Part shown: one piece after another, positions 47,413 through 61,408 of the stretch
How the letters are laid out: every line of letters starts with the position of its first letter
How positions within the stretch are numbered: position 1 is the first letter of the stretch
Source: Desulforamulus ruminis DSM 2154
GTDB lineage: Bacteria > Bacillota > Desulfotomaculia > Desulfotomaculales > Desulfotomaculaceae
Assembly: GCF_000215085.1 (NCBI RefSeq)
Contig: NC_015589.1
Location: 2,430,120 to 2,494,119 of the forward strand
Length of the DNA: 64,000 bases
Reading direction: 5' to 3'
Translations under genes and position numbers: made by a program
The notes under the pieces: generated by a model
The model's input: only the letters and a program-made list of their open reading frames with translations
The model's database searches: none
What the model was told of the DNA's origin: nothing

Positions 47413-47925
47413 TTGAATAAAGGATATTGCGATAAAAATAAAGGTACCATAGAAGAAACCACTAGAGATATGGCTTGCGCGCAAATCCTAGGCGGACCCC
47501 TGGCGCCCCGGTTGACCGGTTTAGTTTATTTTACCGCTGTACCTGGAGGCACCTGGGTGGCAGTGGAAGTATGCGGACTGCCGCCTTACCAACCGGCTCA
47601 AAATTGTGGTCAGCCTATTGGCCCCCATGGTTTTCATATTCATGAAAACTGCAACTGCGAAGTTGGCGATGTGAATGACCCCTTCATGGGCGCCGGCGAG
47701 CATTGGAACCCTACCAACCAGCCCCATGGCAATCATGTGGGGGATTTTCCGGTATTGTTCTCAAACAACGGCTATGCCCGCATGGCCTTCTTTACCAATA
47801 AATTTAAACCCTGTCAGGTAGTAGGCCGGTCGATCATTATCCATCAAAACCCGGATGATTACAGAACCCAGCCCTCGGGCAATTCCGGAAAGCGTCTGGC
47901 TTGTGGGATTATCGTAAATTGCTGA
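47413..47925 (+). CDS. Cu/Zn superoxide dismutase family protein
   Basis: The 170-residue protein starts at TTG 47413 behind AAGGAAGGG. Metal ligands are visible: HGFHIHE (copper), GEHWNPTNQPHGNHVGDFP (zinc and copper) and IIIHQNPDDY, with paired cysteines. There is no signal peptide, which is unusual because bacterial Cu/Zn SODs are mostly exported; spore-associated forms exist in Firmicutes. It has its own transcript. Confidence 0.88.
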   Translation: MNKGYCDKNKGTIEETTRDMACAQILGGPLAPRLTGLVYFTAVPGGTWVAVEVCGLPPYQPAQNCGQPIGPHGFHIHENCNCEVGDVNDPFMGAGEHWNPTNQPHGNHVGDFPVLFSNNGYARMAFFTNKFKPCQVVGRSIIIHQNPDDYRTQPSGNSGKRLACGIIVNC

Positions 47926-55108: not shown

Positions 55109-55314
55109 TGAAGCTTATCTTACATTTTACTTACAAAACAGCACAAGAAAATTTGGCTATTGGTTTTGTTAAATGCTTGCAAAATCTAAACGGATAAAAA
55201 TTTTCTTTTTAACTTTGTACAAAGCGTAATTGCAAAAGTAATTTACAATAATTTGCAAAAAATTCAAAGAGACTTTTATATAGATAAACCAAATTTATTT
55301 GTCTAATTTTCTTA

Positions 55315-55586
55315 GTCGATCGTGTTACTGCGAGAACTCAAGTGATTGACGACAATTTAATAAAGACCAAAGTGGCATAATTAAAGGATTGAAGAAAATA
55401 AAATATTAGAAATAGCCTAGGCGTTTTTTATGGTACGCCTTATATGTCGCCGGATTCAACGTGCTTTTAGTTTACTATGAGGATGTAAAACTCTGTGGAT
55501 ATTAAGACGTTTTTAGCTTGATTTGAAACTTTATAGGTAAACACTTTCTTTTGTGAGGTGAGAGGTTTTTAGCCTAGGGAGACTGG
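55315..55586 (+). CRISPR. Decayed CRISPR leader with degenerate repeats
   Basis: The region 55315-55461 matches the leader before the intact array: GTCGATC...GATTGACGAC, GACGACAATTTAA, GGCAT, CGCCTTATAT and TCGCCGGATTCAACG line up with 59966-60117. Then come repeat remnants: 55462-55491 (about one-third changed), 55509-55529 (exact repeat with 9 internal bases lost), and from 55565 GTTTTTAGC only, after a 35-nt gap equal to a spacer. Confidence 0.8.
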
Positions 55587-55595
55587 GTATTTATT

Positions 55596-56250
55596 TCCTT
55601 TTTAACGCATATATCTTCTAAAACATGATCCTGCCCCTTCGTTTTGGGTCAGAAAGACCTGCTGGCAAGGTTTTTCCTGTGGAGGATCTTTCCGGGTTGC
55701 TGGATAGTCCTTTCCTGGTCTTTGACACTTTTCGGCCAGTATACACCGCAGTTCTTCTCCCACCTCATCAGCTCCCAAACGCTCGTTGCGAAGCAACTTA
55801 ATAGCTTCCTCCTAAGTCTTTTCTAATAAACAGCGCCCTGTCCTTTGTTCCGAATTATTAACTGCAATGACTATAATTCAACAATGCACTCCCTACCCCC
55901 ATTTTCTAACGCCTTTTATGCAAAAAATTGATTCGACAAAAAACCACATTTTAATTTATAGATATTTTTTGAATTATACTATATATTATTTAATAGATTA
56001 TCTATTTTAATTCTAAGATATAAATTTTATTTTATAAATGGCAAAAATACAAAGTTAATGTAATTTCTAAAGATCATAAAATTTAATCTATTTTTAAGAG
56101 TTAAAACAAATTACCAAATCGGAAACAGATTACAGATTATTGAAAATGTTTTCTATAAAATAAATTAATTAAACGAAAGGTGGTGTTAAGAAGTCTTTAT
56201 AAGTGACAAAAAGGGAAAACTTTTATACTTTAAAATTGGAGGGAAGTATT
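55596..56250. other. AT-rich stretch without a confident gene
   Basis: A 64-codon minus-strand frame (55602-55796) has no recognisable domain and may be part of a decayed gene. The rest, to 56250, is about 75-80 percent A+T and likely holds the promoter of the secreted-protein gene at 56251. Confidence 0.4.
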
Positions 56251-57479: not shown

Positions 57480-57552
57480 TTTTTATTTATAGTAAAAATT
57501 AAGTAAAAGAGGTCTACCATGGAAATTGGTAGCGACACCCATAAAAAGATGA

Positions 57553-57740
57553 TATACTGACAACAGACGAGGGTGTGGCTCGTGGGGTTAGTTGCTCATG
57601 AAAATGAGTTAACTCGGCTCTGAAATGCCGCCCTCGTTTTGTTGTTATCCATGACATTTACCGGGATGATGCCGTCCTGCGGGAAGTGGCTCTGTTAGTA
57701 GACGTGATGTTGGATAACAACGGGGTGGCGCCATAAAGGG
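57553..57740 (+). ncRNA. Candidate IS110 bridge RNA
   Basis: A -10 box TATACT (57553-57558) precedes two large stem-loops in the noncoding left part of an IS110 element. Loop 1 is closed by CAACAGACGAGGG (57561-57573) with CCCTCGTTTTGTTG (57631-57644), and has an inner CTCAT-GAAA-ATGAG hairpin. Loop 2 is closed by a perfect 11-bp stem GTTGTTATCCA/TGGATAACAAC (57641-57651, 57711-57721). Two internal loops between promoter and transposase match bridge-RNA architecture. The 3' end is not defined. Confidence 0.65.
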
Positions 57741-57751
57741 AGGGGTTGTAT

Positions 57752-59043
57752 ATGCAACAACAGCACCTGTTAGTCGGCGTGGATGTAGGGTGCCGCAAAC
57801 ATCACGTCGCCATTGGTGGATCTGGCGGGATCACAGAACAATTTGAAATCACGCATGACGCCCGAGGCTTTGCGTATTTCTTTGGGCGTGTTAGTGAACA
57901 GGCACGACGCCAACGCTTGCCGGTTGTCGTCGGTATGGAAGGCACTAACGGCTATGCCCGGCCCTTAGATCAACTTGTTAAAGACAAAGGGTATACCCTC
58001 TTGAATGTCAACAACTTAAAATTGGCGCGGTTTAAAGAAATATTTGCGTCTCCGACCAAAACGGACAGTATTGATGCACAACAGATTGTCACGCTTATGA
58101 TGATGGCTCCCTTTATGGAGCAGGTCAAAGAATCCCTGCAACCCGTACTGACTGTCAGCGAGATCGAACAGCAGCTCAAACGGCTCAGTCGCCGCCGCAG
58201 ACATTAGTACAGGAGAAAGTCAATGTGCAAAACCGCATGCAGGTGGACCTTCAATCTGTGTGCCCAGGATTTCTTGATATCATTCATAAAGTGGATGCGC
58301 TCTATGTATTGCGCTTCCTCAGCTTTCGTTCCGATCTACGCCAGCTAGCCAGACTGAGGCCGGCCACCATCCGAAGCATTCCCGGCATAGGCGTGACCAA
58401 AGCGGCGATGTTGGCACGATGGCAGTCCAGCGCCGTCTTTGGATCGGAAATTGCCTGGGTGGGACCGATGATTGTAGAAGACGCCAAACGCTTGCTGCAA
58501 CTAAAGGGAGCAATTGATTCGCTGGAAGCCCAACTGGAGGCTTTGGTTAAACAGTCTTTACTAGCAAGAATCCTTGACAGCATCCCGGGGTTCGGGACGA
58601 TCAGCGCAGCGGAGGTCAGTGGCGAAATTGGGACGATGACACGATTTGCGTCAGAAGCCAGTCTAGCTATCTATTTAGGGATGGCTCCGCTTGACAACAG
58701 CTCCGGCAAGCATAAGGGAACGAAATCGCCGCAACAAGTTAATAAACGGGCTAAGGCAGCCATGATGGTGGGCATGGGGCATCATATCCGCAAAGTAGCT
58801 GAATCAAAAGCATATTATGAAAAGAAACGGACCGAAGGAAAAAGGCACAATCAGGCCTTGCGTTCGTTAGGTAGACACATTACCCGTGTCTTTTGGAGCA
58901 TGGTAAAAAACAACCGTCTATACGAAGAAAAAAACAATCTCCTGTTACATAATTTTATGATAGCTAGGGAGAATGGGATGTCGTTTCAACTGCCTAACTT
59001 CCAATATTTTACTGAATTAGCTCTGGCAGATAAAATCTCTTGA
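57752..59043 (+). pseudogene. IS110 transposase split by a one-base frameshift
   Basis: ATG 57752 (GGGAGGGG upstream) begins a DEDD transposase: GVDVGCRKHHVAI, GMEGTNGYARPLDQ, KTDSIDAQQI. The frame ends at 58207 after LSRRRRH. The next frame continues as QTLVQEKVNVQNRMQ and on through a transposase_20 domain (IPGIGVTKAAML, IPGFGTISAAEVSGE, YLGMAPLDNSSGK, RAKAAMMVGM) to 59043. Adding one C in the CGC run at 58190-58198 restores one frame of about 430 residues. Unless it is a programmed shift, the copy is inactive. Confidence 0.88.
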
Positions 59044-59061
59044 CAAATCGAGCGGGATGTT

Positions 59062-59109
59062 CAGGCCTACATTATTACACATTGTAAAAAGTGCAATAAT
59101 GTAGGCCTG
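59062..59109. repeat. Long inverted repeat after the IS110 element
   Basis: CAGGCCTACATTATT and AATAATGTAGGCCTG are perfect 15-bp arms, with CAC/GTG pairing further in and a short A-rich loop. It may be a terminator or part of the IS right end. Confidence 0.7.
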
Positions 59110-59304: not shown

Positions 59305-59821
59305 ATGAAACTTACTATCAAAGACTGTACCCTGGATGATATTCATATACTTCATGAAGTTTCTTATAAAAACATATAGTGAAACCTTCAGAAATATGAA
59401 TACACTATTTAACATGAAAACCTATCTGGAACAGGCTTTTGAAATTAACAAACTACGTGATGAATTATCAAATAGCAGTTCGCTGTTTTATTTTCTATAT
59501 GTTGATGAAGAATTAGCAGGTTACTTAAAATTGAATGAATACGAAGCACAAACCGATCTCAACGACCCACAATCCATAGAAATTGAAAGAATATATGTGA
59601 CAAAAGAATTTCAAGGCAAAGGCTTGGGTCGTATCTTATTAAATAAAGCAATTGACACAGCAAATATACGAAAAAAATCGTACATATGGCTTGGCGTCCG
59701 GGAAAGAAATGATAAAGCGATTTCATTTTATAAAAAGAATGGATTTTATGTAATTGGCAACCATCCCTTCTTTATGGGAGAAGAAGAACAAACAGATTTT
59801 ATTATGCGAAAAGATCTATAA
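59305..59821 (+). pseudogene. GNAT acetyltransferase with one-base frameshift
   Basis: ATG 59305 reads MKLTIKDCTLDDIHILHEVS and stops at 59377; the second frame continues KTYSETFRNMNT through the acetyl-CoA site (YVTKEFQGKGLGRILLNKA) and WLGVRERNDKAISFYKKNGF to 59821. Removing one A from the run at 59368-59372 joins the frames into a full-length protein of about 171 residues. It may be a true pseudogene or a homopolymer read error. Confidence 0.8.
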
Positions 59822-59965
59822 TCCGATTAATATGCTTATTGATTGTTAAAGCTAAAATTTTTCTCTTTAGCTTTAAATAAAGATTATTTGTAAAAGGACT
59901 TTAAAATCTTTTGCAGAAAAAATTTAAAATGGTTTGGCAATGCAAATTAATCTGACCTCATTTTT

Positions 59966-60117
59966 GTCGTCGATCGTAGGTAGTGCAAAAAACCCGGGGG
60001 ATCGACGACAATTTAAAAAGGATCAAACGGCATGTTTAAAGGGCTGGAAAAAATGAGGTGTTTAAAATGCCCTATAGCACTTTTATAATATGCCTTATAT
60101 TTTGCCGACTCCGACGG
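59966..60117 (+). promoter_or_regulatory. CRISPR leader
   Basis: AT-rich region ending at repeat 1. It includes a perfect 10-bp inverted repeat GTCGTCGATC/GATCGACGAC (59966-59975, 60000-60009) and TTATAATAT near 60084. The degenerate copy at 55315 supports its extent. Confidence 0.75.
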
Positions 60118-61408
60118 GTTTTTAGCTTACCTATAAGGATTTGAAACTGCCATTTCTGTATCCCTAGAGGTTGACACTATGGCGGTTTTTAGCTTACCTA
60201 TAAGGATTTGAAACAAGCGTCTATATGTCGTTCTCCAAAGTCTGAACTATGTTTTTAGCTTACCTATAAGGATTTGAAACAGAGATTTTTCAATCTCTTC
60301 CTCTGGTTCAAAAACTTGTTTTTAGCTTACCTATAAGGATTTGAAACTACTTTTTTGCAATTTCCTTGATTTCTATTACCGACGTTTTTAGCTTACCTAT
60401 AAGGATTTGAAACGGAATGATCCCTCGTTCAGGATTTCAGGTTTTAGTGAGTTTTTAGCTTACCTATAAGGATTTGAAACCCACCTTCCAGTATAAATGA
60501 TGTTTTTTATTTAAAAGAGTTTTTAGCTTACCTATAAGGATTTGAAACCGCATACTGCGAGAAGAAAAGAATCTAACCCTTGAGTTTTTAGCTTACCTAT
60601 AAGGATTTGAAACCCGCTCAGCAGGCACTGGAACATAAATTAATTGACGAGGTTTTTAGCTTACCTATAAGGATTTGAAACTAAGCGCAAGAAAGACGGT
60701 AGCTATAGGCCTGTAGGGTTTTTAGCTTACCTATAAGGATTTGAAACTTCCATTATCCCAATTAATATCATCCCATTTAAGAGTTTTTAGCTTACCTATA
60801 AGGATTTGAAACTCTCACCCCCTCCATTTTCTTGAACACCGCCCCACAGTTTTTAGCTTACCTATAAGGATTTGAAACACCATTGGCTGATTTTGTCAAT
60901 AACGCTTTGTTTGTGTTTTTAGCTTACCTATAAGGATTTGAAACCTAAACTTAGAAGGAGGTGTGGGAAATGACTAACTTGTTTTTAGCTTACCTATAAG
61001 GATTTGAAACATGTCCTGCTCAACTTTCACCCGCTGGCCATCATGGGTTTTTAGCTTACCTATAAGGATTTGAAACTTTGGAGGTGGTAGCTATGGGTTA
61101 GGTGAGAAAAAAGTTTTTAGCTTACCTATAAGGATTTGAAACCCCAAGGGTTAAAAGGAGAAAAAGAGATAAGGATTGGTTTTTAGCTTACCTATAAGGA
61201 TTTGAAACGTAAAACAGGCCGGTGTGGGAGCGGTGGAAGCTGGAAGTTTTTAGCTTACCTATAAGGATTTGAAACAAAGGGGATGGCTATTACCGTGATC
61301 AGGAAAAGTAAGTTTTTAGCTTACCTATAAGGATTTGAAACTGAGGATCTAAAAGAACGACTGCAAATTTAGTCATTAGTTTTTAGCTTACCTATAAGGA
61401 TTTATCAA
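60118..61408 (+). CRISPR. CRISPR array, 20 repeats and 19 spacers
   Basis: The 30-bp repeat begins GTTTTTAGCTTACC and ends AAGGATTTGAAAC; 19 copies are identical and the last (61379-61408) ends in ATCAA in place of GAAAC. Spacers are 35-38 bp, all different. The leader is on the left and the degenerate repeat on the right, so the array reads on the plus strand. The repeat end GAAAC is usual for type I-B/III systems. No cas gene lies in this window. Confidence 0.97.

Follow-up and report, generated by a model that had tools for sequence, protein, structure and literature searches.

A decayed CRISPR leader and array remnant near an intact array in Desulforamulus ruminis

A working CRISPR leader guides the integration of spacers at the first repeat of its array and drives transcription. 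The CreT toxins of CreTA systems are tiny RNAs, beyond homology detection. Their partners, the creA antitoxin genes, have been described as a short spacer set between two degenerate repeats (PMC8501985), and RNA anti-CRISPRs (Racrs), which belong to phages and prophages, are solitary repeat-like units outside an array (PMC10651486). Here we describe a locus of Desulforamulus ruminis that bears some likeness to each of these systems. It lies in a 64,000-base stretch of DNA (the window) covering positions 2430120 to 2494119 of the closed, 3,969,014-base chromosome. Coordinates refer to the window unless marked as genome positions, and the features of the relic are all on the plus strand.

Published tallies for the species differ: 11 "CRISPR repeats" were counted in the Desulfotomaculum ruminis DL(T) genome (PMC3569383), and 10 arrays are given elsewhere (PMC8146710). 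The chromosome has a type I-B cas operon (Cas6b, 8b, 7b, 5b, 3b, 4b, and 1b; genome ~3061547 to 3070077), which would serve both the relic and the neighboring array A1, and a second, type I-C operon, the repeat of which is unrelated to the I-B family. A single leader family has six intact members, which precede arrays A1 to A6. Array A1 (60118 to 61403, plus strand) consists of 19 identical repeats of 30 nt followed by a final, truncated one, and its intact leader occupies 59957 to 60117 on the same strand, 4.6 kb from the relic. The other arrays with intact family leaders are A2 (genome 3061057, minus strand), A3 (genome 3099787), A4 (genome 1800074; at least 54 repeats), A5 (genome 3091332), and A6 (genome 1143369, minus strand). 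Array A7 (genome 1102451, minus strand; in the region L014 12383 to 13465, genome 1102382 to 1103464) has no recognizable family leader; an open reading frame that looks integrase-like by eye is immediately upstream of it. Arrays A5, A6, and A7 have a common trailer, beginning ATACCATAATGGAAACTGC, 3' of a last, altered repeat.

A sister of the A1 leader

The initial annotation of this DNA proposed that blocks resembling those of the active leader, in the same order, precede the relic repeats. Alignment of the two regions upheld this. The relic leader (55303 to 55462) aligned over its whole length with that of A1 at a score of 58.5, far above that of dinucleotide shuffles (mean, 10.7; standard deviation, 1.75; z of 27). 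It also aligned with all six intact leaders, from the inverted repeat through the repeat boundary, and was recovered in a genome-wide BLAST search with E values of ~2e-17 to 4e-17. When the intact leaders alone, six in number and without the relic, were used to build a covariance model, the model found the relic at 65.3 bits (E of 3.3e-9), and all stronger matches in the genome were array leaders. The relic has full-length leader homology directly 5' of a repeat, a feature of the leader family in this genome. The initial annotation had also raised the prospect of leader-like blocks away from repeats; only one 25-base fragment of this kind was found, and the other genome copies are at arrays. 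The fragment is an isolated copy of the leader 5' end at genome 1768337 to 1768361 (L042 4338 to 4362), with no nearby repeat.

The leader of A1 is the closest to that of the relic, with a p-distance of 0.33, versus 0.42 to 0.48 for the other five intact leaders. The homology extends beyond the leader: about 140 nt upstream of it, outside the family core (55168 to 55301), match the A1 flank at 59826 to 59954 (z of 9.5), which begins just past the stop codon of an acetyltransferase gene at 59821. The relic flank did not match the flanks of the other arrays (z of -0.7 to 0.8) and gave a z of 2.9 with the isolated leader fragment at genome 1768337. A non-leader flank common to the relic and A1 only, together with the A1 leader being the nearest, points to one local duplication. 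It might instead be supposed that another leader copy arrived here and decayed independently, because the genome holds six intact leaders and the relic-A1 distance resembles the distances among them. However, the match of the flank to A1 and to no other array makes such an origin very improbable.

Local duplication of the A1 locus followed by decay of one copy, as the initial annotation suggested, is the best reading and a very likely one, given the sister leader, the flank shared with A1 alone, and the decayed repeats, spacer, and inverted repeat. We infer that a local duplication would have copied a leader together with the DNA flanking it upstream and, at a minimum, the beginning of an array. 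One duplicate would have stayed intact as A1, and the other would then have decayed through point mutations, small deletions, and loss of the distal array, the end product being a leader, a first repeat, half a spacer, a second repeat, one spacer, and a stub of a third repeat. Between the two leaders is an IS110-family copy (57511 to 59066, plus strand; ends approximate) with its transposase in two frames. It looks recent because it shares 98% identity with two other copies, and it is the only part of the DNA between the leaders that appears so. Relatives, in which the initial annotation had proposed looking for the same relic, offered no corresponding locus to date the event: in genomes of the same genus the Rrf2 neighborhood had differing neighbors and no orthologous site, and a leader pattern like that of A1 and the relic had no match in the genome contig collection.

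Decay of the leader, repeats, and spacers

The first relic repeat, R1 (55463 to 55491), is a degenerate 29-nt unit with five substitutions and a one-base deletion. R2 (55509 to 55529) is the A1 repeat minus the nine internal bases ACCTATAAG; the remaining 21 bases are identical, including the final eight, TTTGAAAC, which form the crRNA 5' handle. R3 (55565 to 55576) is a 12-base stub, GTTTTTAGCCTA, that begins 35 nt after R2, exactly one spacer length on. The description of these three repeats in the initial annotation was therefore accurate; it had passed over the gap between R1 and R2, where the spacer remnant S1 (55492 to 55508) has 17 nt, half the length of a normal spacer (35 to 38 nt). 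The score of R1 was reached by none of 2,000 shuffles and that of R2 by 2 of 2,000. R3 by itself does not beat shuffles (127 of 2,000 reached its score), and thus its assignment rests on the exact spacing. Near-identical repeats with 35- to 40-nt spacers, as in a functional array, are absent. Among the signals for Cas6 processing, the handle is intact in R2 and mutated in R1, and the core of R2 and the 3' half of R3 are missing. The nine bases absent from R2 seem to be absent also from the last repeat of A3.

At its start, the second spacer, S2 (55530 to 55564; 35 nt), matches the repeat core in inverted orientation, TTTATAGGTAAAC, as the initial annotation had pointed out. The match has a shuffle p of 0.0016, for a comparison chosen after looking, and none of the genome's 209 real spacers does as well against the complement of that core. 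One post hoc speculation is that a hairpin around GATTTGAAAC once paired R2 with the beginning of S2, and that its left arm, just the nine missing bases, was lost by slippage. Neither S1 nor S2 matched any of the 209 spacers, and no protospacers beyond chance were found for either. A search for further repeat remnants between the relic and A1 yielded none that were convincing, and no structured RNA was found across R1 to R3 (z of 0.2).

The leader is decayed as well. At columns conserved in at least 85% of the leaders of the order, the relic is changed in 10 of 36 (28%), compared with a median of ~9% for other leaders. The inverted repeat at its 5' end survives as a left-arm remnant, GTCGATC (55315 to 55321), and a nearly intact right arm, GATTGACGACAATTTAA (55344 to 55360), that has no mismatches to the degenerate consensus. 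The relic retains 9 of the 12 pairs rather than a fully paired element. A model of the inverted repeat scored 51 to 81 bits in the six intact leaders and did not report the relic at E values up to 1, and the folding z was -0.9 in the relic versus -3.7 in A1. A few leaders with intact arrays are likewise down to 6 to 9 pairs, and A4 has an intact array despite a broken left arm. Loss of an arm alone therefore does not kill a locus.

Mutations are unevenly distributed in the relic. R2 (21 of 21 bases) and the R3 stub are nearly free of substitutions, in contrast to ~20% in the leader and R1 (Fisher p of 0.01 to 0.04, post hoc). Such a pattern is not expected under uniform neutral decay and counts against simple decay, as does the retention of the block GATYGACGACAATTTAA. 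One possibility for the low mutation of R2 and R3 is recombination with sister arrays.

The leader inverted repeat and remnants in other genomes

Comparison of the relic with relatives brought to light a covarying, 12-bp inverted repeat with a conserved loop, GTAGTGCAAAAACCCCGGGG, at 59964 to 60011 in the A1 leader and in the leaders of L059 to L135. Of 398 genomes sampled from the phylum, 113 contain it, and almost all loci that could be read far enough have it ~90 to 140 bases before an array. Double changes occur in 10 of the 12 pairs; none of 500 shuffles was as good, and sliding the arms abolished the signal. G-T mismatches (11) and A-C mismatches (14) are about equally common, with no strand bias, which favors a DNA-level element over an RNA hairpin. 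In two loci (L085 and L090) the loop is unchanged but the stem differs, as does the CRISPR repeat. A search of Rfam with the A1 leader gave no match, and no description of the inverted repeat was found in the literature searched, which is not proof of novelty. In the A3 leader (L060 1501 to 1562) the arms are so long that the leader model matches the opposite strand too.

The leader family is present in 27 of 113 genomes of the order, where an array nearly always follows when there is enough downstream sequence. Stubs like the relic occur elsewhere. In L077, for example, an intact leader with its array is followed 1.28 kb farther along on that strand by a shortened leader that has only one, degenerate repeat (1395 to 1496). 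L130 and L134, from the phylum sample, each have a leader and one degenerate repeat with no array; in L130 (1501 to 1700) the inverted repeat is intact and a gene that looks cas4-like by eye is directly downstream. The collapse of arrays to stubs of this kind is thus recurrent. In a genome of the same genus (G001), at L069 and L093 (1662 to 1790 in both), a mobile-element-like end, CCTGAAAATTAAAG, is joined at CTAT inside a CRISPR repeat. The end is repeated, the translation is IS110-like by eye, and two arrays are affected; in L069 the hybrid repeat occurs twice, flanking a spacer, as if acquisition had copied a repeat with a 3' half of element DNA.

The relic shows how a genome with multiple arrays gains and loses CRISPR loci through local duplication, and it provides a natural control for which parts of a leader are under constraint. 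The inverted repeat, a candidate element in over a quarter of the sampled phylum genomes, invites a search for its binder.

Possible functions and comparison with known systems

The relic could be a functional, minimal CRISPR locus in which a crRNA-like guide (CreA or a Cas-regulating RNA) steers the I-B effector to repress the promoter of a toxin or of cas genes. The published form of creA is of this kind (PMC8501985), R2 has kept its handle, and the effector is encoded in the genome. However, the I-B cas operon is ~575 kb away, the handle of R1 is mutated, R2 is without its core and R3 without its 3' half, there is no counterpart in relatives, and neither S1 nor S2 has a seed match (positions 1 to 5 and 7 to 11) in the cas regions searched; a single match elsewhere, at 47792, is unrelated. 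Such a role is highly unlikely. It is just as hard to credit that the leader was reused to promote or regulate the secreted-protein genes downstream. A gene on the same strand begins ~0.6 kb downstream, at 56203, and the leader stub of L130 stands directly before its cas4-like gene, but 55150 to 55700 contain no sigma-70-like site, a terminator-like hairpin is present at 55572 to 55588, and the inverted repeat of the relic is decayed. It is also conceivable, though very improbable, that the solo leaders with one or a few degenerate repeats (those of L130 and L134, the second one of L077, and the relic) are not all dead and form a retained regulatory or decoy class that shares the inverted repeat, and that the D. 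ruminis copy makes an RNA in which the start of S2 could pair with crRNA repeats. Nothing supports retained function, and the relic is an ordinary, well-supported CRISPR pseudo-locus, which has probably lost both transcription and spacer acquisition.

Among described systems, the relic is like a type I-B leader and array (Rfam CRISPR-DR2) in its leader blocks, their order and spacing, its repeat sequence, and one spacer of normal length, but with R1, R2, and R3 damaged and S1 at half length, it is too degraded to count as an array. It shares two degenerate repeats around a spacer with the creA of CreTA; unlike creA, it keeps a full leader, is far from cas genes, has damaged handles, and yielded no target. 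Like Racrs, it comprises solitary repeat-like units outside an array, but it carries a leader and sits among chromosomal genes rather than in a phage, its neighbors being an Rrf2 regulator and, judged from their translations, cytochrome bd-like genes.
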